Made by a program: the position numbers and the translations under genes
From: an uncultured Lachnoclostridium sp.
GTDB taxonomy: Bacteria > Bacillota > Clostridia > Lachnospirales > Lachnospiraceae
DNA length: 36,108 bases
NCBI GenBank assembly: GCA_947369165.1
Contig: CANBKJ010000027.1
Coordinates: 1 to 36,108, forward strand
Direction: 5' to 3'
Shown: positions 7,078-25,608 of the stretch, in pieces
Layout: every line of letters starts with the position of its first letter
Position numbering within the stretch: the stretch's first letter is position 1
The notes under the pieces: model-generated
Told to the model about the DNA's origin: nothing
Database searches by the model: none
Seen by the model: only the letters and a program-made list of their open reading frames with translations

Positions 7078-7276
7078 TTTTTCGTGTATCAGTTATTCAT
7101 ATATCCAAAGTGTATAGTATAACTTATATATCGGCAGAAATGGAAATATTATGAATATGGCAAAAAAGTATATTATTATGAAAAATTTTAACAAAATAGA
7201 AAAATAAAGAAAAATGATTTATAAACTTTATTTTATAAAGTAAAAAAAGAATTTATTAAAAAAAACAAAAAAGTGC

Positions 7277-7305
7277 TTGAAAAGTCATAAAAATTATTGT
7301 ATAAT
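7277..7305 (+). promoter_or_regulatory. Promoter of the gltB operon
   Basis: TTGAAA (7277-7282), a 17-base spacer and a perfect TATAAT (7300-7305), with AT-rich DNA upstream. The start point is expected near 7312, which puts the transcript's first bases right at the terminator hairpin beginning at 7316. The rest of the 7078-7440 gap is AT-rich with no gene. Confidence 0.85.
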
Positions 7306-7315
7306 GCATTCAGAC

Positions 7316-7371
7316 AAAGGTGTCAGAGAAGAAATACATACCCAAAGTGTTTCTTTCTGGCACCTTTTTTT
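7316..7371 (+). terminator. Leader terminator (attenuator) before gltB
   Basis: Arms 7316-7334 and 7350-7367 form an approximately 18-bp stem with one bulge and two G-U pairs, around a 15-base loop, followed directly by a T-run to 7371. It lies between the promoter and gltB, so transcripts should stop here unless the hairpin is prevented. The 5' arm overlaps a small GAC-AAAGGT-GTC hairpin whose hexaloop has A at position 1 and G at position 4, the pattern ANTAR proteins recognise. That stem is only 3 bp and I could not find a convincing second hexaloop hairpin. Confidence 0.8.
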
Positions 7372-7469
7372 GTTTCAAATGAGACAGAAAGAATCAAATC
7401 AAATGCGCATCATTTTCCAGGGTATGGGATGTCGGTCTTGTGAAGGTGCGTGAGAATGGAGGAATCGGT

Positions 7470-10400
7470 ATGAGTGGCACATATGTAGAGGAAACAAAGA
7501 GAAAAGCCATTGGTATGTATGATCCAAGCTTTGAACATGATAACTGCGGAATTGGAGCGATCGTTAATATTAAAGGAAAGAAAACTCATGATACAGTAAA
7601 AAATGCATTGGAGATCGTGGCTCATTTAGAGCACAGAGCCGGCAAGGACGGGGAAGGAAAGACAGGAGACGGCGTTGGCATCCTGCTTCAGATCTCCCAC
7701 AAGTTCTTTCAGAAGGTGGCGGCCGGTATGGGCATTGAGATCGGTGATGAGAGAGAGTATGGTGTGGGTATGTTTTTCTTTCCCCAGGATGAACTCAAAC
7801 GCAACCAGGCAAAGAAAATGTTTGAGACCATCGTGGATAAAGAGGGACTGACATTTCTGGGCTGGCGTGAGGTTCCCATCTCGCCCCGTATCCTGGGAAA
7901 AGCTGCGGTGGAATGTATGCCGTATATCATGCAGTGCTTTATAAAAAAACCGGCAGAGACAGAAAAGGGGCTGGAGTTCGACCGAAAACTCTATATCGCC
8001 CGCCGGGTGTTTGAGCAGTCCAATGAAAATACCTATGTGGTATCTCTTTCCAGCCGTACCATTGTATATAAAGGAATGTTTCTGGTGGCACAGCTGAGGC
8101 AGTTTTTTGATGATCTGCAGGATCCGGACTACGAATCTGCTATCGCCATGGTTCACTCCCGTTTCAGCACCAATACCCAGCCGAGCTGGCAGCGCGCTCA
8201 TCCGAACCGCTTCATCGTGCACAATGGTGAGATCAATACCATCCGTGGAAATGCAGATAAAATGCTGGCCAGGGAAGAGACGATGGAGTCGGATCATCTG
8301 ACTGGAGAGCTTCATAAGGTACTTCCGGTGGTGAATACCGAGGGCTCTGATTCAGCTATGCTGGACAATACGCTGGAATTTCTGGTGATGAGCGGCATGG
8401 AGCTTCCTCTTGCTGTGATGATCACGATACCAGAGCCCTGGGCAAATAATCGCTATATCAGTGATAAGAAAAAGGATTTTTACCAGTATTATGCCACGAT
8501 GATGGAACCCTGGGATGGGCCTGCTTCCATTCTGTTTTCCGACGGAGATATCATGGGAGCGGTGTTGGACCGCAACGGACTTCGCCCGTCCCGTTATTAT
8601 ATCACCGATGACGACCAGCTGATCCTGTCCTCCGAGGTAGGGGTTATGCCCATCAGTGAGGAACATGTGGTGAAAAAGGATCGCCTGCGTCCGGGAAAAA
8701 TGCTTTTGGTGGACACGGTGAAAGGTGAGTTGATCGATGACGATGAACTGAAAGAAACCTTTGCCTCAAAACAGCCTTACGGAGAATGGCTGGATACCAA
8801 TCTCGTGTGTCTCAAAGACCTTCAGATTCCGAATAAGCGGATTGAGTCTTACGATCCGGAGGAAAGCCTGCGGCTTCAAAAGGCATTTGGCTATACCTAT
8901 GAAGAAGTAAAATCCTCGATTCTTCCGATGGCGAAAAACGGTTCTGAGCCCATCGCAGCGATGGGACATGACACACCGCTGGCGGCGCTTAGTGGTCAGC
9001 CCCAGCCTTTGTATAATTATTTTAAACAGCGTTTTGCCCAGGTGACCAATCCACCCATCGATGCCATCCGGGAAGAGGTTGTGACTTCTACTACAGTATA
9101 CATTGGGGATGCGGGAAATCTGCTGGAAGAGAAGGCTGAGAACTGCCATTCACTTAAGATTGACGATCCAATCCTTACGAATACTGATCTTCTAAAGATC
9201 AAGTCCATGAATGTACCCGGCTTTAAAGTGGCAGTTATTCCGATCACCTACTATAAAAATACTTCCCTGGAAAAGGCGATCCACCGCCTTTATCTGGAGG
9301 CAGACCGGGCATATAAGGACGGCGCCAATATTCTGATCCTCTCCGACCGGGGAGTGGATGAGAACCATGTGGCGATCCCGGCGCTTCTGGCGGTATCTGC
9401 CATGCAGCAGCATCTGGTCAATACGAAGAAGCGCACCTCCCTTTCTATGATCCTAGAGAGTGCGGAGCCAAGAGAGGTGCATCATTTTGCGACGCTGCTC
9501 GGATTTGGTGCCACCGCGGTCAACCCCTATCTTGCGCTGGATACGATCCGTGGTCTGATCGACAGCCGTGTGCTGGATAAGGATTATTATGTGGCGGTGA
9601 ACGATTATAATTCTGCGGTTCTCCATGGAATTGTAAAGATTGCTTCCAAAATGGGCATTTCTACGATCCAGTCTTATCAGGGAGCCAAAATTTTTGAAGC
9701 GGTGGGACTTTCTAAAACATTGATCGATCCCTACTTTACCGGAACCGTTTCCAGGATCGGCGGACTGAATATCGAGGACATTCAGAACCAGGTAGAGATG
9801 CTTCATGATAAAGCATTTGATCCACTGGAACTGGGTACAGATATCACTCTTGACAGTATTGGAAACCACAAGAGCCGCAGCGGAAAAGAAGAGCACCTCT
9901 ATAATCCGAAGACCATCCATCTTCTGCAGGAGGCGACAAGAACCGGTGACTATAAGAAATTCAAGGAGTACTCCCATGAGATCGACCGTGAAGACCTTTA
10001 CGTGAACTTAAGAAGTCTCCTTGACTTTAACTTCCCGAAGAAGGGGATCGCCCTTTCTAAAGTGGAGAGTGTGGAGGAGATCGTGAAACGCTTTAAGACC
10101 GGAGCGATGTCTTACGGCTCTATTTCCCAGGAGGCCCATGAGACCCTTGCTATCGCCATGAACCGGCTTCACGGAAAATCCAACAGCGGTGAGGGAGGAG
10201 AGAGCCTGGAACGTCTCACCGTGGGAAAAGATGGGTTAAACCGCTGTTCTGCCATCAAGCAGGTGGCATCGGGACGCTTTGGCGTGACATCCAGATATCT
10301 GGTCAGCGCCAGGGAGATCCAGATTAAGATGGCGCAGGGTGCCAAGCCAGGAGAGGGTGGACATCTGCCGGGGAAAAAAGTGTATCCCTGGGTGGCAAAG

Positions 10401-12032
10401 ACGAGACACTCCACACCGGGGGTATCTCTGATCTCGCCGCCGCCACATCATGATATTTATTCCATCGAAGATCTGGCGCAGCTGATCTACGACCTGAAAA
10501 ACTCCAACCGGGATGCGAGAATATCGGTGAAACTTGTCTCTGAGGCTGGGGTCGGAACCGTGGCAGCCGGTGTGGCGAAGGCAGGTGCTGGAGTGATACT
10601 GATCTCTGGCTATGACGGTGGTACCGGCGCGGCGCCGGGAAGCTCCATTCACAATGCCGGGCTTCCCTGGGAGCTGGGACTGGCGGAGACCCATCAGACG
10701 CTTTTGATGAACGGTCTGCGGTCCAAGGTTGTGATTGAGACCGACGGGAAGCTGATGACCGGGCGTGATGTTATGATCGCGGCTCTGCTCGGCGCGGAGG
10801 AATTTGGATTTGCCACCGCACCTCTTGTGACCATGGGATGTGTTATGATGAGGGTTTGCAACCTGGATACCTGTCCGGTAGGAGTGGCGACACAGAATCC
10901 GGAACTTAGAAAGAGATTCAAGGGAAAACCGGAATACGTGGAGAATTTTATGAGATTTATCGCGGAAGAAGTCCGGGAACTGATGGCGAAATTTGGCGTG
11001 ACTACGCTGGATGAACTGGTGGGACGTTCCGATCTTCTGAGAGTGCGGGAAGATATTGATAATGAGAGAGCCGGCAAACTGGATCTCTCTGCGATCATAG
11101 AGAATCCCTTCGTGAAGGAGAAGAAGAGCAAGTTCAACAGCAAAGATATCTATGACTTTAAATTAAATAAAACAATAGATGAAAAGGTCTTTTTGAAAAA
11201 ATTTGCGGAGAATCTTGAGACCGGAGAAAAGAAGACCATTACGGCGAAAGTGACCAATACCGACCGCTCCCTGGGAACGATCTTTGGATCCCAGATCACA
11301 AAGAAACTGGGAGATGATCTGGAAGAGGATACTTTTACGATAAAATGTACCGGAAGCGGCGGGCAGAGCTTTGGTGCCTTTATCCCAAGGGGGCTGACCT
11401 TAGAGCTTAAAGGTGACAGCAATGACTACTTTGGCAAGGGACTTTCCGGAGGAAAACTCATCGTATACCCGCCGGAGAATATCCAGTATAAACCGGAGGA
11501 TAACATCGTGATCGGTAATGTGGCGCTGTACGGCGCTACCAGCGGTACCGCTTATATCAATGGTGTGGCAGGAGAGCGGTTCTGTGTAAGGAATTCTGGT
11601 GTTCACGCTGTTGTAGAAGGTGTGGGTGAGCACGGCTGCGAATACATGACCGGTGGCTGTGTGGTGATCCTCGGTTCCACTGGAAAGAACTTTGCCGCCG
11701 GAATGAGCGGCGGTATCGCCTATGTTCTGGATGAGAACAGCGACTTGTATCTGAAACTGAATAAGGAACTGGTTTCCTCAGAAGCAGTGTCCAATAAATA
11801 TGATGTCATGCAGCTTAAGGATATGATCACGGCGCATGTAGAGGCGACGGGTTCAGAAAAGGGTAAGGAGATTCTTGAGAACTTCAAGGAGGTTCTACCG
11901 AAGTTCAAGAAGATCATACCTCATGATTACAAGAACATGCTGCAGAAGATTGCCATTATGGAAGAGAAAGGGCTGAGCAATGAGCAGGCCCAGATCGAGG
12001 CATTCTATGAGACCCAGAAGGAAATTTCATGA
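7470..12032 (+). CDS. gltB: Glutamate synthase, large (alpha) subunit
   Basis: Transfers the amide of glutamine to 2-oxoglutarate; ammonia travels from the glutaminase site to the FMN site. 1520 residues, normal for NADPH-type GltB. Cys26 in DNCGIGAI is the Ntn nucleophile exposed after removal of a 25-residue propeptide, and the class II amidotransferase domain runs to about 430. The FMN/synthase domain starts near 850 (TGAMSYGSISQEAH, HGKSNSGEGGE, GYDGGTGAAPGSS). Cys1124, Cys1130 and Cys1135 (C-x5-C-x4-C) bind the 3Fe-4S cluster. The GXGXG beta-helix domain ends the protein. Start chosen at ATG 7470, seven bases after GGAGGA; an earlier GTG at 7440 has no ribosome site. First gene of the nitrogen operon, behind the attenuator. 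Confidence 0.97.
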   Translation: MSGTYVEETKRKAIGMYDPSFEHDNCGIGAIVNIKGKKTHDTVKNALEIVAHLEHRAGKDGEGKTGDGVGILLQISHKFFQKVAAGMGIEIGDEREYGVGMFFFPQDELKRNQAKKMFETIVDKEGLTFLGWREVPISPRILGKAAVECMPYIMQCFIKKPAETEKGLEFDRKLYIARRVFEQSNENTYVVSLSSRTIVYKGMFLVAQLRQFFDDLQDPDYESAIAMVHSRFSTNTQPSWQRAHPNRFIVHNGEINTIRGNADKMLAREETMESDHLTGELHKVLPVVNTEGSDSAMLDNTLEFLVMSGMELPLAVMITIPEPWANNRYISDKKKDFYQYYATMMEPWDGPASILFSDGDIMGAVLDRNGLRPSRYYITDDDQLILSSEVGVMPISEEHVVKKDRLRPGKMLLVDTVKGELIDDDELKETFASKQPYGEWLDTNLVCLKDLQIPNKRIESYDPEESLRLQKAFGYTYEEVKSSILPMAKNGSEPIAAMGHDTPLAALSGQPQPLYNYFKQRFAQVTNPPIDAIREEVVTSTTVYIGDAGNLLEEKAENCHSLKIDDPILTNTDLLKIKSMNVPGFKVAVIPITYYKNTSLEKAIHRLYLEADRAYKDGANILILSDRGVDENHVAIPALLAVSAMQQHLVNTKKRTSLSMILESAEPREVHHFATLLGFGATAVNPYLALDTIRGLIDSRVLDKDYYVAVNDYNSAVLHGIVKIASKMGISTIQSYQGAKIFEAVGLSKTLIDPYFTGTVSRIGGLNIEDIQNQVEMLHDKAFDPLELGTDITLDSIGNHKSRSGKEEHLYNPKTIHLLQEATRTGDYKKFKEYSHEIDREDLYVNLRSLLDFNFPKKGIALSKVESVEEIVKRFKTGAMSYGSISQEAHETLAIAMNRLHGKSNSGEGGESLERLTVGKDGLNRCSAIKQVASGRFGVTSRYLVSAREIQIKMAQGAKPGEGGHLPGKKVYPWVAKTRHSTPGVSLISPPPHHDIYSIEDLAQLIYDLKNSNRDARISVKLVSEAGVGTVAAGVAKAGAGVILISGYDGGTGAAPGSSIHNAGLPWELGLAETHQTLLMNGLRSKVVIETDGKLMTGRDVMIAALLGAEEFGFATAPLVTMGCVMMRVCNLDTCPVGVATQNPELRKRFKGKPEYVENFMRFIAEEVRELMAKFGVTTLDELVGRSDLLRVREDIDNERAGKLDLSAIIENPFVKEKKSKFNSKDIYDFKLNKTIDEKVFLKKFAENLETGEKKTITAKVTNTDRSLGTIFGSQITKKLGDDLEEDTFTIKCTGSGGQSFGAFIPRGLTLELKGDSNDYFGKGLSGGKLIVYPPENIQYKPEDNIVIGNVALYGATSGTAYINGVAGERFCVRNSGVHAVVEGVGEHGCEYMTGGCVVILGSTGKNFAAGMSGGIAYVLDENSDLYLKLNKELVSSEAVSNKYDVMQLKDMITAHVEATGSEKGKEILENFKEVLPKFKKIIPHDYKNMLQKIAIMEEKGLSNEQAQIEAFYETQKEIS

Positions 12033-12113
12033 CAGCGCCCCTGACAGGAGCCGGGGGAAAAGACGTTGCATTGCAGATATAAATAATTTATAATGAGGAA
12101 AGGGTTGAAAACT

Positions 12114-13595
12114 ATGGGAAAACCAACCGGATTTTTAGAGTATGACCGCAGGGGAAACACCGAGACCGGGCCCCTTGAACGGATTCAGAACTTCAATGAA
12201 TTTCATGTAGCGATGGGAGAAGAGGAGCGGCGGTGTCAGGCAGCCAGATGCATGGACTGCGGTGTACCTTTCTGCCAGTCAGGAATGATGATCGGCGGGA
12301 TGGCTTCCGGGTGCCCGTTAAACAATATGTGCCCCGAATGGAATGATCTGATTTATCTGGGGAATTACACAGAGGCATTAGGAAGGCTGCTAAAGACTAA
12401 CAATTTTCCTGAGTTTACCTCCCGGGTCTGCCCGGCGCCCTGTGAGGCAGCATGTACCTGCGGACTGAACGATACTCCCGTCACCATTAAGGAAAATGAA
12501 AATGCCATCATTGAATACGGTTATGCCAATGACCTGATGAGGGCGAAGCCGCCTAAGGTGAGGACCGGAAAAAAAGTGGCAGTGGTGGGCTCCGGCCCCT
12601 CTGGCCTGGCAGCGGCAGACCAGTTAAATAAGCGGGGACACAATGTGACCGTGTTCGAGCGTTCTGACCGCCCCGGCGGGCTTCTGATGTACGGGATCCC
12701 CAATATGAAGCTGGAAAAGACCGTGATCGAAGGCAGGGTTAAGATCATGGAAGAAGAGGGAGTAGAATTCCGCACGGGAGTTAATGTAGGAGTTGACGTG
12801 AAGGCAGAAGAGCTTCTGAAGGATTATGACAGGGTGATCCTCACCTGCGGTTCATCGAAGCCAAGAGACATCAAAGCACCGGGTAGAGAAGCAGCGGGAA
12901 TATATTTTGCGGTGGATTATCTCACAAGGGTGACAAAACATGTGATGGATCCAGAGTATAAAGATGTGATCGATGCCAAAGGAAAAAATGTTCTGGTGAT
13001 CGGCGGCGGAGATACGGGAAATGACTGTGTGGGATCTTCCATCCGACAGGGAGCAAAAAGTGTGGTTCAGCTGGAAATGATGCCAAAACCTCCGGAAGAA
13101 CGCGCTGACAATAACCCCTGGCCAGAGTGGCCCAAGGTATTAAAGACCGATTATGGCCAGCAGGAAGCCATCGCTGTATTCGGCAGTGATCCACGGATTT
13201 ATGAGACCACGGTTAAAGAATTTATCAAAGATGAAAAGGGCTGTCTCACTAAGGTAAAGGCGGTAAAGCTGGCATGGACCAGAGATGAAGAGACAGGACG
13301 CATGAATATGAGTGAGATACCAGGCAGTGAATTTATTCTGGATGTGGATCTTGTGTTTATCGCCGCCGGATTTCTGGGAACCCAGGAATATATCGCCGAG
13401 GATTTTGGCCTGAAACTGACAGAGCGGGCCAATGTGTTTACCAAACCAGGTCAGTACAAGACAAATGTAGAACGCGTATTTGCCGCTGGCGATATGCACC
13501 GGGGACAGTCTCTGGTGGTCTGGGCCATCCGGGAAGGGCGCGAAGTGGCGAGAGAAGTGGACGGGGATCTGATGGGATACTCGAACTTAAATTAA
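12114..13595 (+). CDS. gltD: Glutamate synthase, small (beta) subunit
   Basis: Oxidises NAD(P)H and passes electrons through FAD and 4Fe-4S clusters to GltB. 493 residues. N-terminal cysteine groups [25 protein letters not shown] and [11 protein letters not shown] bind the iron-sulphur clusters. [14 protein letters not shown] is the FAD site and [13 protein letters not shown] the NAD(P) site. [17 protein letters not shown] is the C-terminal FAD signature. The start at 12114 fits GAGGAAAGGG at 12095-12104; an ATG at 12093 overlaps that site and is unlikely. The 81-base gap after gltB contains no clear terminator. Confidence 0.96.
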
Positions 13596-13670: not shown

Positions 13671-14984
13671 ATGGGAAATTATACCAAACAGGACATTATA
13701 CGGTTAGTTGAAGAGGAAGATGTGGGATTTATCCGTCTGCAGTTTGTGGACAGTTTTGGCGGGTTAAAAAATGTGGCGATGACCAGCGATCATCTCGACC
13801 AGATCCTGAATAACCGCTGTATGTTTGACGGCGCCGCCATCCAGGGATATGATACAAAGGAATTGTCAGAATTTATCCTGGCCCCGGATCTGGATACATT
13901 TACCATTTTTCCCTGGCGTCCCCAGAGAGGACGGGTGGCAAGATTTATCTGTGATGTGCTCAATCCTGACGGAACGCCCTATGAGGCAGATCCGAGATAT
14001 ATATTAAAAAAAGTAGCAGCAGAGGCAGAGCGAGAGGGATTTTCTTTCCATGTGGGGCCGGAAAGCCAGTTTTTCCTCTTTGATACCGATGAGAACGGAC
14101 AGCCTACGACGAATTCCAGGGAAAAAGGCGGATTTTTTGATATCGGACCGCTTGATTCCGGGGAAAATGCGAGACGCGATATGATACTTTCCCTGGAGGA
14201 GATGGGCTTTGTCATGGAAAGTTCGTATCATTCCAACGAGGTGGCGCAGCACTGCATCGATTTTATGTGTGACGAGGGACTTCGCACTGCAGACAACATC
14301 ATGACTTTTAAGCTGACGGTTCGCACGGTGGCGAAGCGGCATGGACTGCACGCTACTTTTATGCCAAAACCGCGGTATGGATTAAAGGGATCTGCGATGA
14401 TGCTAAACATGTTTTTGAGCAAAGATGGAAATAATATATTTGCCGACGAGAGTGCGTCGGACGGCATGAGCAAAAGGGCATACCATTTTATGGCGGGGAT
14501 CATTCGTCATATCAAGGGGCTGACCTTGATCAATAATCCTATCATAAATTCCTATAAACGGCTGGTACCGGGCTACAACGCACCAGTGGAGATCACCTGG
14601 TCACGTACCAGCAGAACCCCTCTGATCCGCATCACCAATGTGGGAGTGATCGGTCCAAGAGTGGTGCTGCGGAGCCCGGATGGTGCCAGCAATCCTTACC
14701 TGGTCCTGGCGGGCTGTCTGGCTGCCGGTCTGGAGGGAATCCGGGAGAAGCTGGAGCCGCCGGTGAGCATGGATGATGTCAGTGGGGAACAGGATCCTCG
14801 GTTTGACATTTTGCCGAGATCGCTGCGGGAGGCGATCCATGCTTTTGAAGAAGATATATTTTTGCAGAATGTGTTCGGAAAAACCCTCTCTGAGATTATT
14901 ATCAATGAAAAGAAAGAAGAATGGGAGGAATTTTCCCGACAAGTGACAGCCTGGGAGGTGGAAAAGTATCTCGACCGCGTATAG
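13671..14984 (+). CDS. Glutamine synthetase-like protein lacking catalytic residues (predicted pseudoenzyme)
   Basis: 437 residues, full length for type I glutamine synthetase, and gaplessly alignable with the Bacillus enzyme in the regions compared. Fold motifs are kept: MFDGAAI (Asp53), HGLHATFMPKP, NSYKRLVPGY and PLIRI. The active-site residues are not. GPEPEFF reads GPESQFF (second metal Glu to Gln133). HHEVAPGQHE reads YHSNEVAQHC (Ser188 and Cys195 in place of two Glu). GSGMHCN reads GSAMMLN (His to Met244). Flap PGYEAP reads PGYNAP (Glu to Asn303). RVEVRS reads RVVLRS (Glu to Val332). Only the first metal Glu (131) remains. Synthesis of glutamine is therefore very unlikely. The frame is intact with AGGAGGAG before the ATG, so it is a maintained protein, not a decayed gene. 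Between gltD and an ANTAR regulator, a sensor or partner role is my inference. Confidence 0.88.
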   Translation: MGNYTKQDIIRLVEEEDVGFIRLQFVDSFGGLKNVAMTSDHLDQILNNRCMFDGAAIQGYDTKELSEFILAPDLDTFTIFPWRPQRGRVARFICDVLNPDGTPYEADPRYILKKVAAEAEREGFSFHVGPESQFFLFDTDENGQPTTNSREKGGFFDIGPLDSGENARRDMILSLEEMGFVMESSYHSNEVAQHCIDFMCDEGLRTADNIMTFKLTVRTVAKRHGLHATFMPKPRYGLKGSAMMLNMFLSKDGNNIFADESASDGMSKRAYHFMAGIIRHIKGLTLINNPIINSYKRLVPGYNAPVEITWSRTSRTPLIRITNVGVIGPRVVLRSPDGASNPYLVLAGCLAAGLEGIREKLEPPVSMDDVSGEQDPRFDILPRSLREAIHAFEEDIFLQNVFGKTLSEIIINEKKEEWEEFSRQVTAWEVEKYLDRV

Positions 14985-15018: not shown

Positions 15019-15561
15019 ATGCGGATCCTTGTTGCGTTTCCTAATCTGGAGGATGCAAAAAAATTGAAAAATGTTCTGAACCGCGGCGGTTTTGATGATA
15101 TACTAGCCTGCAATAGTGCGTCTCAGGTGATCAGCGTGGCAAATGATTCCGATGGGGGGATTGTGGTCAGTGGATATAAACTCCCGGATATGCACTACAG
15201 TGAATTATTTGGTTATCTGCCCAGAGAATTTTCCATGCTTCTGGTGGCAAGTCCTGCCAGACTGGAGGACTGCTACAGCCGGGAGATCGTATGCCTGTCC
15301 ATGCCGGTTCATTCCCGGGAACTGATCAATACTGTACATATGATGACCATGGATCTCGCCAGGGAATTGAAGCGGCGGAAGAAAAAGCTGCCGAAAAGGC
15401 GGACGGCAGAGGAACAAAAGACCATTGATGCGGCGAAGGCCCTTCTGATGGAACGCAATCAGATGACGGAAATGGATGCGCATAAATATATCCAGAAACT
15501 CAGCATGGACAGCGGGAACAATCTGGTGGAAACGGCGGAAATGATCCTGGCATTTGAATAA
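15019..15561 (+). CDS. ANTAR-domain RNA-binding antiterminator with pseudo-receiver
   Basis: 180 residues. Residues 1-110 look like a response-regulator receiver, but the phosphorylation Asp position is Gly52 (SGYKLPDM) and the N-terminal acidic pair is missing (ILVAFPN), so phosphorylation is unlikely. After a very basic linker (KRRKKKLPKRR, 118-128), residues 130-179 match the ANTAR three-helix domain (TIDAAKALLMERNQMTEMDAHKYI...LVETAEMILAF). ANTAR proteins bind paired hexaloop RNA hairpins and prevent terminator formation. AGGAGGTGA at 15001-15009 is a near-perfect ribosome site. The gene starts 34 bases after the glutamine-synthetase-like gene and 17 bases before carA. A similar regulator (NitR) beside glnA and glt genes is known, from memory, in Clostridium saccharobutylicum. 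Its target may be the gltB leader. Confidence 0.92.
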   Translation: MRILVAFPNLEDAKKLKNVLNRGGFDDILACNSASQVISVANDSDGGIVVSGYKLPDMHYSELFGYLPREFSMLLVASPARLEDCYSREIVCLSMPVHSRELINTVHMMTMDLARELKRRKKKLPKRRTAEEQKTIDAAKALLMERNQMTEMDAHKYIQKLSMDSGNNLVETAEMILAFE

Positions 15562-15578
15562 TGGAATGGAGGCAATAT

Positions 15579-16682
15579 ATGAAAGCTTATTTGATTCTGG
15601 AAGATGGAACTGTATTTACCGGAAAAAGTATCGGGAGTACAAGGGAAGTGATCAGTGAGATCGTATTTAACACTTCCATGACCGGTTATCTGGAGGTGCT
15701 GACGGATCCCAGTTATGCGGGACAGGCGGTGGCAATGACCTATCCTCTTATTGGAAATTACGGTATATGCCGGAGAGACATGGAATCAAAGAGGTCCAGT
15801 GTGGATGGTTTTATTGTCCGTGAATTGTCCAGGCTCAGCAGCAATTTCCGGGATGAGCAGAGTGTCCAGGATTTTCTGGTGGAGCAGGACATTCCGGGAA
15901 TTGAAGGCATCGATACCCGTTCCCTCACCAAGATCCTGAGGGAAAAGGGAACGATGAACGGCATGATCACCACCAATGAAGCCTGTGATCTGGATGCCGT
16001 CACCAGTCAGTTAAAACAATATAGTGTTCTCGGCGTCGTTGACAGGGTAACAACAAAAGAAGCTGTATCCTATCAACCTGGGGATTTGGATACAGATAGC
16101 AGCATTCCGATCACGAAGAAGGTTGCTATTCTTGACGTGGGGACAAAATTTAATATTGCCAGATGTCTGCTGAAGCGTGGGTGTGAGGTGACGGTCTATC
16201 CCGCGCGTACGAAGGCGGAGGATATTCTGGCGGGGAATCCTGATGGGATCATGATCACCAATGGCCCGGGGGATCCAAAGGACTGCGGGGAAGTGATCGA
16301 GAATCTGAAAATTCTTTATGCCTCAGATATACCAATCTTTGCTATCTGTCTTGGCCATCAGCTGATGGCCCTTGCCATGGGTGCGGATACCGAGAAGATG
16401 AAGTATGGACACCGGGGCGCGAATCACCCGGTGAAGGATCTGGAGACAGGGAGAGTTTATATTTCATCCCAGAACCACGGGTACGTCGTAAAAGAGGATA
16501 CCATCCCGGAGGGAGTGGCGGAGACAGCTTTTATCAATGTAAACGACGGCACCGTGGAGGGACTGAGGTATTTAGGGAAAAATATTTTTACGGTGCAGTT
16601 TCACCCGGAAGCGTGTGCCGGACCAAAAGATTCCGAAATATTGTTTGAGCGGTTTATGAGCATGATGAAGGAGGAAGCGTGA
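15579..16682 (+). CDS. carA: Carbamoyl-phosphate synthase, small (glutaminase) subunit
   Basis: Hydrolyses glutamine and delivers ammonia to CarB for carbamoyl phosphate, precursor of arginine and pyrimidines. 367 residues. The N-terminal CarA domain has VFTGKSIG and NTSMTGYLEVLTDPSYAGQ. The C-terminal class I amidotransferase domain has nucleophile Cys257 in AICLGHQ and His342/Glu344 in FHPEA. The ATG at 15579 follows GGAGG (15568-15572); an ATG at 15561 that overlaps the previous stop has no such site. Placement in the glutamate operon ties this glutamine-using step to nitrogen supply. Confidence 0.97.
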   Translation: MKAYLILEDGTVFTGKSIGSTREVISEIVFNTSMTGYLEVLTDPSYAGQAVAMTYPLIGNYGICRRDMESKRSSVDGFIVRELSRLSSNFRDEQSVQDFLVEQDIPGIEGIDTRSLTKILREKGTMNGMITTNEACDLDAVTSQLKQYSVLGVVDRVTTKEAVSYQPGDLDTDSSIPITKKVAILDVGTKFNIARCLLKRGCEVTVYPARTKAEDILAGNPDGIMITNGPGDPKDCGEVIENLKILYASDIPIFAICLGHQLMALAMGADTEKMKYGHRGANHPVKDLETGRVYISSQNHGYVVKEDTIPEGVAETAFINVNDGTVEGLRYLGKNIFTVQFHPEACAGPKDSEILFERFMSMMKEEA

Positions 16683-16683
16683 T

Positions 16684-19600
16684 ATGCCTAAGATAGAAGG
16701 AATACAAAAAGTTTTGGTGATCGGCTCCGGTCCGATCGTCATCGGACAGGCAGCAGAGTTTGATTATGCGGGAACCCAGGCATGCCGTTCCCTGAAAGAA
16801 GAGGGGATGGAGGTTGTTCTGATCAACTCAAATCCCGCTACCATCATGACGGATAAGGATATCGCGGACAAGGTATATATCGAGCCGCTGACGGTGGATG
16901 TGGTAAAGAATCTGATCCGGAAGGAAAAGCCGGACAGCGTCCTGCCTACACTGGGGGGGCAGGCGGCCCTGAATATCGCCATGGAGCTGGAGGAATGCGG
17001 ATTTCTGGAAGAGCAGAAGGTGCGATTGATCGGAACTACTTCCTTAACGATAAAAAAAGCCGAGGACCGTCTGGAATTTAAACAGACTATGGAAAAGATC
17101 GGCGAGCCCATCGCCGCCAGTGAAGTTGTGGAGACTGTGGAAGACGCGGTGGCATTTGCAAACACCATCGGCTATCCGGTGGTGATCCGTCCCGCATATA
17201 CCCTGGGTGGCAGCGGGGGAGGCATCGCCGGCAATGAAGAAGAGCTCAGGGAGATCTGCGCTAATGGCCTGCGTCTCTCCCGGGTGGGACAGTGCCTCAT
17301 CGAGCGCTGTATCGCTGGCTGGAAAGAGATCGAGTATGAGGTGATGCGGGATGCCGGCGGCAACTGCATCACGGTCTGTAATATGGAAAATCTCGATCCT
17401 GTGGGTGTCCATACCGGAGACAGTATCGTGGTGGCGCCATCCCAGACTCTGTCAGATAAAGAATATCAGATGCTCCGGTCTTCGGCGCTAAGTATTATCA
17501 CTGAACTAAATATCACCGGAGGATGCAACGTACAGTTTGCCCTCCATCCGGAATCTTTTGAGTACTGTGTCATCGAGGTAAATCCGAGAGTCAGCCGTTC
17601 CTCCGCCCTCGCTTCAAAAGCTACAGGATATCCCATCGCCAAGGTGGCGGCGAAGATTGCCCTGGGCTATACTTTGGATGAGATCCCCAATGCCATCACC
17701 GGCAGGACCTTCGCCAGCTTTGAGCCGGCGCTGGATTATTGTGTAGTGAAGATTCCGAGATTACCTTTTGATAAATTTATTAAGGCCAAGAGAACCCTGA
17801 CTACCCAGATGAAGGCCACGGGAGAGGTCATGAGCATCTGTACTAATTTTGAAGGGGCTTTGATGAAGGCGCTGCGTTCCCTGGAGCAGCATATCGACAG
17901 CCTGGATATCGGAAGATATACAGACCGCTCCAAAGAGGAGCTGCTAGAGCGTGTCCGTATCGTGGATGACCGGAGGATCTATATTATAGCGGAACTGATC
18001 CGAAAGGGAGCGACATACGAAGAGATTCATGAGATTACAAAGATCGACCGCTGGTTTATCGACAAGATAGCGATCCTGGTAGAGATGGAGCAGCGTCTTA
18101 AGAGGGAGACGCTGACGCCGGAACTTCTTGCAGAGGCAAAACGGATCGAGTTCCCCGATAAGGTCATCGCCGGTTATGCCGGAATGACCGAGCGCGAAGT
18201 CCATGATCTGCGTGTTGCCAATGGCATCACCGCTGCCTTTAAGATGGTGGATACCTGCGCAGCGGAATTTGAGGCGGCGACACCTTATTATTACAGCTGC
18301 TTTGGCAGTGAGTGCGAGGCGGATGCGGTTAAGACAAAGAAAAAAGTGATGGTGCTTGGATCCGGCCCCATCCGCATCGGTCAGGGTATCGAGTTTGATT
18401 TTTGTTCGGTGCACAGCGCCTGGTCGTTGGAACAGAGCGGTTATGAGACCATAATAGTAAATAACAATCCGGAGACCGTAAGTACGGATTTTGACGTGGC
18501 CAATAAGCTGTACTTTGAGCCGCTCACACCGGAGGATGTGGAAAATATCGTGGATCTGGAAAAACCCGACGGAGCTGTCGTACAGTTTGGCGGACAGACC
18601 GCCATCAAGCTCACCCAGGCGCTGATGGAGATGGGAGTTCCGATCTTTGGAACCAGCGCAGAAAATGTGGATGCCGCAGAGGACAGAGAGCTGTTTGATA
18701 AAATTCTGGAAGAGTGCGGGATTCCGAGGCCAAAGGGGCATACCGTGTTTACCACCGAAGAGGCGTTGGAGGCGGCAGATGAGCTGGGATATCCGGTACT
18801 GGTGCGCCCTTCCTATGTGCTGGGCGGCCAGGGGATGCAGATCGCCATCAATGACGATGACATCATAGAATTTATGTCCATCATCAACCGTCACGTGCAG
18901 GAACATCCGATCCTTGTGGATAAGTATCTGATGGGGAAAGAAGTAGAAGTGGATGCTGTGTGTGACGGTGAAGATATTCTCATACCTGGTATTATGGAAC
19001 ACATTGAGCGCGCCGGGATTCATTCGGGAGACAGTATTTCCGTCTATCCGGCACAGAGCATCAAACCGGAGGTGCAGGAAGTACTGGTGGATTATACGAG
19101 AAAGCTCGCCAGATCTCTCCATGTCATCGGACTGATCAACATACAGTTTATCGTGTACCATGAGGACGTCTATGTAATCGAGGTCAATCCCCGTTCCTCC
19201 CGGACAGTGCCGTATATCAGTAAGGTGACAGGGATCCCTATTGTGAAACTGGCTTCCCAGGTGATTCTGGGAGCGAAGATCAGAGAACTTGGATATGAGA
19301 CAGGACTGGCGAGAAAGGCAGATTATACCGCCATCAAGATGCCGGTATTTTCCTTTGAAAAACTCCGTGGCGCCGAGATCAGCCTTGGACCGGAGATGAA
19401 ATCCACCGGAGAGTGCCTCGGTATCGCCAGGACCTTCAATGAGGCATTGTCAAAAGCATTTCTTGGCGCTGGCATCAATCTGCCTCAGCACAAAAAAATG
19501 ATCCTCACAGTGCGTACCCAGGAACAGGAAGACGCAGTTCCCATCGCCAGACGTTTTCTTGCCCTGGGATATGAGATCTACGCCACCCTGGGAACGAAAA

Positions 19601-19902
19601 AAGCCCTTGCCAGAGCGGGCGTCGAGGTGATCGGAATCAATAAGATCGAGCAGGAAGCGCCGACGCTGATGGATCTGTTACTGGAACACGAGATTGATCT
19701 GGTGATTGATATTCCCAAGCAGGGAGAACATTCCCACGATGGTTTTCTGATCCGGCGGACTTCCATCGAGACAGGTGTCACCTGCCTCACCTCCCTGGAT
19801 ACGGCGAATGCCCTGTTGACCTCTCTGGAAAATGTGGATAAGACCCAGATGTCGCTGATCGATATTGCGGCCATTGAGGGGCGTCAGGGTACAGCACACT
19901 AG
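16684..19902 (+). CDS. carB: Carbamoyl-phosphate synthase, large subunit
   Basis: Makes carbamoyl phosphate from bicarbonate, ammonia and two ATP. 1072 residues with the expected internal duplication: two ATP-grasp halves, each starting with a VLGSGP-type strand (KVLVIGSGPIVIGQAAEFDYAG near 10; KVMVLGSGPIRIGQGIEFD near 557) and each with ExNPRxSRSSA or ExNPRSSRTVP metal-site motifs. The last 130 residues form the MGS-like allosteric domain (LTVRTQEQEDAVPIARRFLALGYEIYATLGT), where UMP and ornithine act in known enzymes. AGGAGG lies 9-14 bases upstream, and carA ends one base before. Its last four bases overlap the convergent potassium gene. Confidence 0.98.
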   Translation: MPKIEGIQKVLVIGSGPIVIGQAAEFDYAGTQACRSLKEEGMEVVLINSNPATIMTDKDIADKVYIEPLTVDVVKNLIRKEKPDSVLPTLGGQAALNIAMELEECGFLEEQKVRLIGTTSLTIKKAEDRLEFKQTMEKIGEPIAASEVVETVEDAVAFANTIGYPVVIRPAYTLGGSGGGIAGNEEELREICANGLRLSRVGQCLIERCIAGWKEIEYEVMRDAGGNCITVCNMENLDPVGVHTGDSIVVAPSQTLSDKEYQMLRSSALSIITELNITGGCNVQFALHPESFEYCVIEVNPRVSRSSALASKATGYPIAKVAAKIALGYTLDEIPNAITGRTFASFEPALDYCVVKIPRLPFDKFIKAKRTLTTQMKATGEVMSICTNFEGALMKALRSLEQHIDSLDIGRYTDRSKEELLERVRIVDDRRIYIIAELIRKGATYEEIHEITKIDRWFIDKIAILVEMEQRLKRETLTPELLAEAKRIEFPDKVIAGYAGMTEREVHDLRVANGITAAFKMVDTCAAEFEAATPYYYSCFGSECEADAVKTKKKVMVLGSGPIRIGQGIEFDFCSVHSAWSLEQSGYETIIVNNNPETVSTDFDVANKLYFEPLTPEDVENIVDLEKPDGAVVQFGGQTAIKLTQALMEMGVPIFGTSAENVDAAEDRELFDKILEECGIPRPKGHTVFTTEEALEAADELGYPVLVRPSYVLGGQGMQIAINDDDIIEFMSIINRHVQEHPILVDKYLMGKEVEVDAVCDGEDILIPGIMEHIERAGIHSGDSISVYPAQSIKPEVQEVLVDYTRKLARSLHVIGLINIQFIVYHEDVYVIEVNPRSSRTVPYISKVTGIPIVKLASQVILGAKIRELGYETGLARKADYTAIKMPVFSFEKLRGAEISLGPEMKSTGECLGIARTFNEALSKAFLGAGINLPQHKKMILTVRTQEQEDAVPIARRFLALGYEIYATLGTKKALARAGVEVIGINKIEQEAPTLMDLLLEHEIDLVIDIPKQGEHSHDGFLIRRTSIETGVTCLTSLDTANALLTSLENVDKTQMSLIDIAAIEGRQGTAH

Positions 19903-22605: not shown

Positions 22606-22629
22606 ATTTACTGTGAAAGTTCCGGACAG

Positions 22630-22798
22630 CGACCATGTGGAGGAGCGTGTTTACACGCACAGCCATATGGTCGTTGGACGGGCAGACGGTATGAGTACGC
22701 AGGGCGACAGCACGAAAGTACGAATGCCGGCAGCGATTGCGGGAGTGCAGTATGCACGAAGCAATCGACTTTTATAACGATGGTGCCGCCGAAGGCGG
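22630..22798. repeat. Cluster of nested intergenic hairpins between rpsO and the Nudix gene
   Basis: No gene lies in 22525-22835. It holds three structures in a row. First, CGACCAT (22630-22636) with ATGGTCG (22667-22673) encloses GCGTG-TTTA-CACGC (22645-22658). Second, CGATTGC (22734-22740) with GCAATCG (22761-22767) encloses GTGCA-GTA-TGCAC (22745-22757). Third comes CCGCC-GAA-GGCGG (22786-22798). The first two share one plan: a 7-bp outer stem and a 5-bp inner stem with a tiny loop. The third recurs at 30635 and 35919. Confidence 0.7.
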
Positions 22799-23300: not shown

Positions 23301-23400
23301 TGGTGCAGCTACTGGGCCGCATGGCCGCAGTATTAAAAAAAATGTTTCCTTTATGGAGATATTATGTTATACTTAATATGTATGTGTAAAAAAACAAATA

Positions 23401-23481
23401 TAGAGATTTGTCCGAGACTTCTGAAAAGTGCATTATCTGAGAGGACGGATAATGTGTTTTTCAGTTGTTTCGGAATCTCTA
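23401..23481 (+). promoter_or_regulatory. Long leader hairpin upstream of pnp
   Basis: An imperfect hairpin of about 80 bases: TAGAGATT (23401-23408) with AATCTCTA (23474-23481), TCCGA with TTCGG, CTGAAAA with TTTTCAG, and CATTATC with GATAATG, around an apical TGAGAGGACG loop. No U-run follows. It ends 30 bases before the pnp start. In enteric bacteria a long pnp leader stem is cut by RNase III and PNPase then degrades its own message; a similar control here is inference. Confidence 0.75.
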
Positions 23482-23511: not shown

Positions 23512-25608
23512 ATGTACAAGACATTTTCAATGGAGCTTGGAGGAAGAACTCTTTCTGTGGATATTGGAAGAGTAGCCGCCCAGGCAAATGGTGCAGCATT
23601 TATGCATTATGGAAATACTGTTGTTTTATCAACGGCGACAGCATCGGAAAAACCGAGAGAAGGCATCGATTTTTTCCCACTTAGTGTGGAGTATAATGAA
23701 AAAATGTATTCCGTGGGAAAGATTCCCGGCGGATTTACGAGACGGGAGGGAAAACCTTCCGACAATGCGATTTTGACCTGTCGTGTGATCGACCGTCCGA
23801 TGCGGCCGCTGTTTCCGAAGGATTATCGGAATGATGTCACTCTTGAAAATCTGGTGATGTGTGTGGATCAGGACTGCAGCCCTGAGCTCACGGCAATGCT
23901 TGGTTCTGCTCTTGCCACATGTATTTCAGATATTCCTTTTGATGGCCCAACGGCAGCGACACAGATCGGTCTGGTGGACGGTGAGCTGGTGATAAATCCT
24001 ACCGCTGATCAGAGACAGATTTCGGATCTCGCTCTTACAGTGGCTTCCACCAGGGAAAAAGTAATCATGATCGAGGCGGGCGCTAACGAAGTGCCAGAGG
24101 ACCTTATGATCGAAGCGATCTATAAGGCTCACGAAGTAAATGGGCAGATCATCGAATTTTTTGATAAGATCGTTGCTGAGTGCGGAAAAGAAAAGCATGA
24201 ATATGAGCACTTTGATATACCAGAGGATCTGTATGAGGACATGGTTTCCTTTGTCACTCCTGAGGCGATGGAAGAGGCTGTGTTTACGGATGTAAAACAG
24301 GTCCGTGAGGAAAATATCCGCAAGATCAAGGATCAATTGGAGGAGCGTTACGAAGAGGCGCATCCGGAGTGGATGGAACTGATCGATGAGGCTGTTTATA
24401 AATTCCAGAAGAAGACCGTCCGTAAGATGATCCTTAAGGACCACAAACGTCCGGATGGCCGTGAGGTGACGCAGATCCGTCCCCTGGCAGCAGAAATCGA
24501 TGTACTCCCTACGGTTCATGGTTCGGGACTGTTCTCCAGAGGACAGACACAGGTGCTCAATGTGACGACTTTGGCACCGTTGGCTGAAAAACAAAAACTG
24601 GATGGACTGGATGAGCATATTACATCTAAGAGATATATCCATCATTATAATTTTCCATCCTATTCGGTAGGTGAGACAAGACCGAGCAGAGGTCCTGGAC
24701 GCCGCGAGATTGGACATGGAGCGCTGGCAGAGAGGGCGCTTGTACCAGTGATTCCTACGGAGGAAGAATTCCCTTATACGATTCGTACCGTATCGGAAAT
24801 CATGGAGTCCAATGGTTCTACTTCCCAAGGAAGTATTTGTGCCTCCACGTTGTCACTGATGGCGGCAGGTGTGCCGATCAAAGCGCCGGTAGCAGGTATT
24901 TCTGTAGGTCTGGTGACTGGAGATTCCGATGATGATTATCTGATCCTTACGGATATCCAGGGACTGGAGGATTTCTTTGGCGATATGGACTTTAAGGTTG
25001 CCGGTACTCATAAAGGAATCACAGCCATTCAGATGGATATTAAGATTCATGGTCTCACCCGTGAAATTGTCGAAGGTGCGATCCGTCGTACCAAAGAGGC
25101 GAGAACCTATATTCTGGATGAAGTAATGATGAAAGCCATCGCAGAGCCGCGTAAGGAAGTAAATGAATTTGCTCCAAAGATCAAGCAGATCATGATTGAT
25201 CCGGCGAAGATCGGTGACGTGGTTGGACAGAGAGGAAAGACTATCAATACGCTGATCGAGCGCACTGGCGTGAAGATCGATATTACCGATGACGGTGCGG
25301 TATCGGTATGTGGTACAGACAAGGCGATGATGGATGAGGCTCTCCGTCTGATCCAGATCATTGTGACAGATTTTGAGAAGGGACAAGTTTTGGAGGGAAC
25401 CGTTGTAAGTATCAAAGACTTTGGTGCTTTTATTGAATTTGCTCCTGGCAAGGAAGGTATGGTTCATATTTCTAATATCTGCAAGAGAAGAATCAATCAT
25501 GTGGAAGATGAACTGACATTGGGCGACAAAGTAAAGGTTGTCTGCCTTGGAAAAGACAAGATGGGCAGAATTTCTTTCAGTATGAAGGATCTCCATGAAA
25601 ATGCCTAA
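23512..25608 (+). CDS. pnp: Polyribonucleotide nucleotidyltransferase (PNPase)
   Basis: Phosphorolytic 3'-5' exoribonuclease, a trimer with RNA drawn through its central pore. 698 residues. The first RNase PH-like core has GGRTLSVDIGRVAAQANGA and FTRREGKPSDNAIL. The second core has RPDGREVTQIRPLAAE, GSGLFSRGQTQ and the active-site region GDSDDDYLILTDIQGLEDFFGDMDFKVAGT. Then a KH domain (GDVVGQRGKTINTLIERTGVKIDI) and a C-terminal S1 domain (VLEGTVVSIKDFGAFIEFAPGKEGMVHIS). An AAGGAG ribosome site precedes the ATG. The end overlaps the next gene by 14 bases. Confidence 0.98.
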   Translation: MYKTFSMELGGRTLSVDIGRVAAQANGAAFMHYGNTVVLSTATASEKPREGIDFFPLSVEYNEKMYSVGKIPGGFTRREGKPSDNAILTCRVIDRPMRPLFPKDYRNDVTLENLVMCVDQDCSPELTAMLGSALATCISDIPFDGPTAATQIGLVDGELVINPTADQRQISDLALTVASTREKVIMIEAGANEVPEDLMIEAIYKAHEVNGQIIEFFDKIVAECGKEKHEYEHFDIPEDLYEDMVSFVTPEAMEEAVFTDVKQVREENIRKIKDQLEERYEEAHPEWMELIDEAVYKFQKKTVRKMILKDHKRPDGREVTQIRPLAAEIDVLPTVHGSGLFSRGQTQVLNVTTLAPLAEKQKLDGLDEHITSKRYIHHYNFPSYSVGETRPSRGPGRREIGHGALAERALVPVIPTEEEFPYTIRTVSEIMESNGSTSQGSICASTLSLMAAGVPIKAPVAGISVGLVTGDSDDDYLILTDIQGLEDFFGDMDFKVAGTHKGITAIQMDIKIHGLTREIVEGAIRRTKEARTYILDEVMMKAIAEPRKEVNEFAPKIKQIMIDPAKIGDVVGQRGKTINTLIERTGVKIDITDDGAVSVCGTDKAMMDEALRLIQIIVTDFEKGQVLEGTVVSIKDFGAFIEFAPGKEGMVHISNICKRRINHVEDELTLGDKVKVVCLGKDKMGRISFSMKDLHENA

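Follow-up and report, generated by a model that had tools for sequence, protein, structure and literature searches.

The open reading frame described here encodes, judging from its sequence, a protein with the fold of type I glutamine synthetase (GS) but without the residues needed for glutamine synthesis. Loss of the catalytic residues appears to have occurred without decay of the gene, and this conclusion is strongly supported. We consider it probable that the protein, referred to below as the pseudo-GS, is a type I GS that no longer carries out catalysis and is retained as the sensor subunit of an ANTAR protein in a NitR-type nitrogen circuit. The stretch of DNA analyzed, referred to as the window, makes up an entire contig (36 kb) from a genome of 2.8 Mb that is 92.6% complete. 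The features of the window on which the argument depends are collected in Table 1.

Table 1. Positions of the features discussed in the text and the evidence for each
Feature	Position	Strand	Evidence
Promoter-like TTGAAA-17-TATAAT directly upstream of the leader	7277..7305	+	11/12 matches; number of promoter-like sites in the region not above shuffles
Leader RNA: GAC-AAAGGT-GTC hairpin (A1, G4 hexaloop) overlapping intrinsic terminator GGTGTCAGA...TCTGGCACC-TTTTTTT	7311..7373	+	z -6.3 and -7.2; 26.7 bits; family covariation
gltB, glutamate synthase large subunit, first gene past the leader	7440..12032	+	Pfam
gltD-like glutamate synthase small subunit	12093..13595	+	Pfam domains; name by context
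Pseudo-glutamine synthetase (GS-I fold, 437 aa)	13671..14984	+	Pfam, 4s0r alignment, residue comparison, NCBIfam score, dN/dS
Altered codons of the pseudo-GS	Q133 14067-14069; S188 14232-14234; C195 14253-14255	+	
Altered codons of the pseudo-GS	M244 14400-14402; N303 14577-14579; V332 14664-14666	+	
ANTAR antiterminator protein, degenerate receiver	15019..15561	+	Pfam ANTAR; HMMER and Foldseek matches to EutV, Rv1626, AmiR
carA, carbamoyl-phosphate synthase small chain	15561..16682	+	Pfam
carB, carbamoyl-phosphate synthase large chain	16684..19902	+	Pfam

Active site of the glutamine synthetase-like protein

A preliminary description of this DNA proposed a full-length GS homolog with a ribosome site, and the sequence bears this out. 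The reading frame opens with ATG, AGGAGGAG lies immediately upstream, the Pfam domains Gln-synt_N and Gln-synt_C cover nearly all of the 437 residues, and the protein matches B. subtilis GS (4s0r) over its whole length (E = 2.7e-138). The alignment had been described as free of gaps; this holds for the active-site blocks, whereas elsewhere it contains a one-residue gap near position 125 and another of about six residues at 369-380. All six of the replacements that had been proposed (Q133, S188, C195, M244, N303, and V332) are present relative to 4s0r. Five of the six metal ligands of GS (E, E, E, E, H, E) are gone, with E131 as the sole remaining one, and the flap Glu is replaced by N303. The accompanying caution that a two-residue shift might supply one metal ligand was well placed. 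The motif HHEVAPAQHE reads YHSNEVAQHC in the window, with E190 located two residues later. Of the 12 sequences taken to represent the degenerate clade to which the protein belongs, 11 carry this E190.

The window GS scores 410.7 bits against the NCBIfam equivalog model TIGR00653, under its cut-off of 429.15 bits; a same-genus protein (L005) scores 414.1 bits and an intact relative (L023) 572.1 bits. The position of Arg62, the feedback-inhibition residue of GS, is occupied by T62; 82 of 106 intact sequences have Arg there, as does one of the 12 clade representatives. Pocket arginines that in GS enzymes bind glutamate and ATP phosphates are retained in the representatives, with R297 and R334 found in 12/12, R320 in 11/12, and R315 in 10/12. 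The AlphaFold model of the window GS is poor (pLDDT 57) and was left out of the analysis.

The same substitutions were sought in relatives, as the preliminary description had suggested. Five public relatives at 97-99% identity share the exact set, and a sixth at 86% identity has most of the losses and retains E133. Because all or most losses are common to these six other public records, sequencing or assembly error is ruled out as their source. The closest named records are metagenome-assembled genomes labelled Eubacterium sp., Eubacteriaceae, and uncultured Roseburia; we call the wider GS family Lachnospiraceae on the basis of such labels.

We read 191 related GS loci, a set that is neither complete nor random. 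The active site is intact (E/D or H at all seven sites) in 153 of these, at least one metal ligand is lost in 31, and the flap residue alone is lost in seven; among the 150 matches listed, there are 24 metal-ligand losses and three flap-only losses. A 'glnA' label in these gut bacteria thus need not mean a working enzyme. A FastTree phylogeny of 171 loci places the window GS in a clade of 17 (support 0.986) that is degenerate throughout. With 191 loci the clade has 19 members (0.988), having been joined by two long-branch degenerate loci, L143 and L158. Members of the clade vary in how much they have lost: at one end, L007, L008, and L098 have lost E188 and the flap residue alone, and at the other the window GS has all six changes. 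The motif HHEVAPAQHE has become YH(S/A)xE in most members. If a lost ligand is never regained, the full trees call for 9 (171 loci) or 17 (191 loci) metal-ligand loss events; these numbers become at least 6 or at least 12 when nodes below 0.9 are collapsed, and at least 4 or at least 8 when nodes below 0.95 are collapsed. The number is tree-dependent, because the 20 added loci moved L143 and L158 into the clade and raised the counts. The replacements also differ between lineages, with C, H, Q, V, or G at position 195 and M, S, F, Q, or K at position 244. On comparison of these loci, the window GS is the extreme of a family with graded and repeated losses, rather than a single odd protein.

Operon, probable ANTAR partner, and leader RNA

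The pseudo-GS gene lies in a same-strand run of gltB, gltD, GS-like, ANTAR, carA, and carB genes, and this order is common to the five near-identical relatives, the 86% relative (a partial contig), the same-genus genome G108, and G270. More broadly, 187 of 191 loci have an ANTAR gene directly downstream of GS and in the same orientation, with a gap of -4 to 358 bp (median 41). This neighbor accompanies 31/31 GS genes with metal-ligand loss, 7/7 with flap-only loss, and 149/153 that are intact. As for the four exceptions, L040 ends at a contig edge and L149, L157, and L165 have an intact GS. The linkage is equally strong for intact GS, so operon membership alone could explain it. In 19 wider neighborhoods, GS and ANTAR occur together in all 19, gltBD in two, and carAB in four within the range covered, which leaves the ANTAR gene as the only gene of the window operon that is constant beside GS. 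Of the 29 genomes without this GS, 20 were searched for an ANTAR domain, and 17 of these have none; in the remaining three (L212, L213, and L214) the match to the partner proteins is confined to the ANTAR domain.

We note that L214 (1480-3138, - strand), from a genome without the GS-ANTAR pair, encodes a CTP synthase with a C-terminal ANTAR domain (Pfam CTP_synth_N, GATase, and ANTAR), and that L213, at a contig edge, contains a similar CTP synthase-ANTAR fusion by eye. Here too, an enzyme that handles glutamine is linked with an antiterminator domain.

The ANTAR protein of the window matches EutV and Rv1626 over its whole length in sequence, and AmiR in the ANTAR part. Its fold matches all three (Foldseek; AlphaFold model pLDDT 89; whole-chain TM of about 0.5). 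In the receiver domain, the phosphoacceptor Asp is replaced by Gly52 and the acid pair by F7-P8. The phosphoacceptor is absent from 187/187 ANTAR partners, where the position is occupied by G (158), S (12), A (12), T (2), E (1), N (1), or V (1), and the acidic pair is also replaced, mostly by F-P. Given this uniform absence, control by a partner protein, as in AmiC-AmiR (PMC3369931), is more likely than control by a kinase.

The hairpin and the terminator of the gltB leader share GGTGTC, and their helices are mutually exclusive, which fits an antiterminator paired with a terminator. The same layout, searched with a strict pattern, is found upstream of GS in 54 of the 169 loci with enough upstream sequence, compared with 0.05 expected from mononucleotide-shuffled sequence, and in 58 of 189 loci of a larger set. 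Over 48 aligned leaders, 95.8% of cells are paired in the small hairpin, which shows 19 double-sided changes (7.9 in shuffles), and 93.2% in the terminator, which shows 20 (4.4 in shuffles). The A1 and G4 residues were preset by the search pattern in 46 of these 48 leaders, and their invariance in those leaders is thus uninformative. The pattern left free the outer hairpin pair and, in the second pair, the 3' letters; the outer pairs covary. An A1/G4 hexaloop hairpin overlapping a terminator is also present at L178. There is no second A1/G4 hairpin of at least three pairs at window positions 7241-7440, and a dual-hairpin scan of the window returns two pairs, neither of them within the gltB leader. 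Rfam gives no match for the leader in the window at the gathering threshold, or in the GS loci of four relatives at E up to 1. The leader could be a new RNA family, one that precedes amtB, GSIII, and gltB in several genera; in some relatives an A..G loop can be seen by eye at the terminator tip.

Other RNA elements are found elsewhere in the window. An Rfam Clostridiales-1 RNA lies at 22614-22774 (99.4 bits). Two consecutive A1/G4 hexaloop hairpins occur at 23394-23470, upstream of a PNPase gene (23512-25608, Pfam) and with no clear terminator; the second caps a long imperfect hairpin, and the arrangement may reflect chance or PNPase autoregulation.

A covariance model (R2) was trained on GS-I leaders plus two gltB leaders (from the window and G108). 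Among 15 genomes that carry the GS-ANTAR pair it found matches in 9, and among 15 without this GS in none (E 0.01; 150 candidates scored per genome). Of its 11 matches, five lie before gltB (L203-L206 and L209), three before GSIII (L200, L201, and L202), and one before amtB (L210, 1501-1541). The tenth (L207, 1501-1538, - strand, in G074) precedes a circularly permuted ATP-grasp gene, which is either an unexpected regulon member or a chance hit, and the eleventh has no ORF of at least 80 aa within 500 nt. The window leader is a modest match at 26.7 bits, although it is a training sequence, and it missed the E 0.01 cut-off in the genome run, as did the leaders of G108, G054, and G024, which are present by pattern. 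Four of the six pair genomes without a model match (G000, G108, G054, and G024) have the leader by pattern. The leader RNA marks a nitrogen regulon in the large family Lachnospiraceae.

A second, intact GS had been proposed as a check, and a type III GS (GSIII) is indeed found in the same genome. A PF00120 search of that genome, which is 92.6% complete, recovers this as the only other GS. It aligns full-length to the solved B. fragilis GSIII 3o6x, and the GS motifs are visible. Furthermore, it has a leader of its own (L193, 1223-1261, 28.4 bits), whose end is separated from the likely ATG (1394) by about 130 nt and whose loop, GAAGGT, starts with G instead of A. Nearly all family genomes (295 of 299) carry a GSIII, so this redundancy is a background condition. 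Three genomes with this GS and without a GSIII match keep an intact GS-I (L139 in G083, L050 in G210, and L113 in G295), as expected, in numbers too small to weigh and with G210 only 68% complete.

The leader precedes GS, gltB, GSIII, or amtB in 9 of 11 degenerate-clade genomes (G000, G108, G054, G074, G164, G171, G192, G286, and G029); G278 has a leader variant by eye only, and none was found in G270. These results suggest that the circuit outlives catalysis. The leader also accompanies intact GS and is thus independent of the pseudoenzyme state. Two tandem leader-like elements are found before GSIII in G257 (L136, 1298-1339 and 1357-1404), and a strong leader match of 42 bits (L192, 14136-14174) is followed, some 460 nt further on, by an ORF that contains a tRNA_anti-codon OB-fold domain and looks tRNA-synthetase-like by eye.

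Selective constraint and alternative explanations

The preliminary description argued that the gene is not decaying by drift, and the rates of substitution are in agreement. Relative to L168, L170, and L171, the dN/dS of the GS gene is 0.028, 0.031, and 0.045, which is close to that of gltD (0.036, 0.029, and 0.034) and lower than those of carA (0.056, 0.063, and 0.073) and the ANTAR gene (0.049, 0.073, and 0.057). Comparisons with L172 and L178 were left out, being mostly saturated and, in the case of gltD of L172, off-frame. Among 106 intact GS sequences, 118 positions are at least 97% invariant, and six of these are the metal ligands. The 12 degenerate-clade representatives keep 107 of the 112 non-ligand positions and 2 of the 6 ligand positions, the latter being invariant by construction, since the intact set was selected by those residues. 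The enrichment of ligand positions among the lost ones is circular because both groups were picked by the same residues, and a hypergeometric test of it carries zero weight. A decaying pseudogene, caught before loss of its frame, would account for the loss of conserved catalytic residues, and the intact GSIII elsewhere in the genome could make GS-I dispensable. This explanation is nevertheless highly improbable: the frame is intact across the clade of 17 loci, the non-ligand invariant positions are largely kept, and the dN/dS values argue against decay.

The protein could also serve in other ways. A new enzymatic activity, or a GS-type activity in which E190 replaces a metal ligand, is unlikely, even though E190 is conserved in 11 of the 12 representatives and could replace one ligand, and some members (L007, L008, and L098) retain all of the seven sites except E188 and the flap. 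There is precedent in Streptomyces GlnA3 and GlnA4, which are described as GS-like proteins that can take new substrates (PMC5403932, PMC6529630). Against this, the window GS has also lost E133, E195, H244, and E332, and the lineage-specific replacements at 195 and 244 fit relaxed constraint rather than a new shared chemistry. The protein might instead join an active GS as a noncatalytic subunit and modulate it, without acting on the ANTAR protein. The C-terminal residues W428, E429, Y433, and L434 are retained in 12/12 clade representatives, so assembly surfaces may be kept. Yet the only other GS found in the 92.6% complete genome is type III, with a different type of subunit, which makes mixed dodecamers unlikely, and the ANTAR neighbor would be left unexplained; we regard this arrangement as distinctly unlikely. 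Finally, the pseudo-GS could be regulatory with another partner (for example, PII or a DNA-binding regulator), with the ANTAR linkage serving only to co-order expression. In favor of this, Bacillus GS acts on GlnR. Its action on TnrA is also described (PMC6316151). However, of the window operon genes only ANTAR is constant beside GS, and genomes without this GS have either no ANTAR domain (17 of the 20 searched) or matches in the ANTAR domain alone, so that a partner of this kind is very unlikely.

Proposed sensing circuit and comparison with known systems

A sensor role acting through the ANTAR protein is the reading we prefer. The preliminary description suggested a dedicated sensor, and pointed to the binding of GlnR and TnrA by glutamine synthetases of Firmicutes. 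Loss without decay is strongly supported, and a regulatory role is its best explanation; as for the partner of the pseudo-GS, the adjacent pseudoreceiver-ANTAR protein with its leader regulon is a likelier candidate than the Bacillus regulators GlnR and TnrA. We infer the binding, the ligand, and the direction of GS-ANTAR control as follows. In its former active-site pocket, the pseudo-GS oligomer would bind an anionic ligand that reports nitrogen status (glutamine, glutamate, or a nucleotide); the retained arginines and lost metal-binding carboxylates suggest a metal-free pocket for such a ligand. In nitrogen-rich cells, the (pseudo-)GS, in one ligand state, would hold the ANTAR protein. Upon nitrogen shortage, the ANTAR protein would be released and dimerize, and could then grip the 5'-terminal AARGGC hairpin of the nascent leader and block the terminator. 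The resulting read-through would allow transcription of gltBD-pseudoGS-ANTAR-carAB, of GSIII, and, in a relative, of amtB. This model of holding and release joins NitR induction with the binding of TnrA by B. subtilis GS.

As to how such a protein arose, we lean toward a history in which GS sensed nitrogen for the ANTAR protein even before it ceased to be an enzyme. GSIII would then have taken over synthesis, leaving the GS-I active site free to decay while signaling was kept, and this would have been repeated in Lachnospiraceae. If true, the degenerate copies expose how NitR-type antitermination senses nitrogen.

In NitR-type antitermination, an ANTAR protein is encoded with GS/GOGAT genes, and nitR is reportedly linked to glnA in Clostridium saccharobutylicum. 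The window resembles this system in that its ANTAR protein is likewise encoded with GS/GOGAT genes and that terminator-containing leaders are found on nitrogen-assimilation genes, and differs in that GS is there treated as an enzyme, whereas the window GS is a pseudoenzyme. NitR is described as inducing GS/GOGAT genes on nitrogen limitation, by a mechanism that the source calls not fully understood (PMC6316151; see also PMC4676874). The same source describes B. subtilis GS as binding TnrA in nitrogen-rich cells and keeping it off DNA (PMC6316151). The likeness to B. subtilis GlnA lies in whole-length homology and in GS acting there as a regulator by protein contact. The window GS differs in being without five of the six metal ligands, the flap Glu, and Arg62, and in that its candidate partner is an RNA-binding ANTAR protein.

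AmiC has a periplasmic-binding-protein fold. The candidate sensor of the window has a GS fold instead, in contrast to the sensors of both AmiC-AmiR and NasS-NasT. In AmiC-AmiR from Pseudomonas and in the nitrate-responsive NasS-NasT, the ANTAR protein is held by a ligand-binding partner, and AmiR is described as having a pseudoreceiver (PMC3369936, PMC3369931, and PMC3795266). The ANTAR receiver of the window is similarly without a phosphoacceptor when aligned to EutV and Rv1626. For the RNA, A1 and G4 are described as the residues needed for ANTAR binding, and the target as two hairpins (Ramesh et al. 2012, PMC3369931). The window leader shares the A1/G4 hexaloop, the overlap with a terminator, and the nitrogen genes downstream, whereas a single covarying hairpin was found per leader, at the 5' end of the transcript.

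Lengsin is a GS-like protein without shown GS activity, and to our knowledge neither lengsin nor FluG, both eukaryotic, has a known ANTAR or RNA link. Fungal FluG is also described as a GS-like protein without shown GS activity (PMC6478659). Among the literature matches listed, from a search covering a minority of subscription journals, none describes an ANTAR protein paired with a bacterial pseudo-GS. Taken one by one, the regulatory role of GS, the control of GS/GOGAT genes by ANTAR proteins, and the presence of ANTAR leaders upstream of nitrogen genes are already known. A pseudo-GS beside an antiterminator separates signaling from catalysis, and makes the idea of GS as a sensor directly testable.
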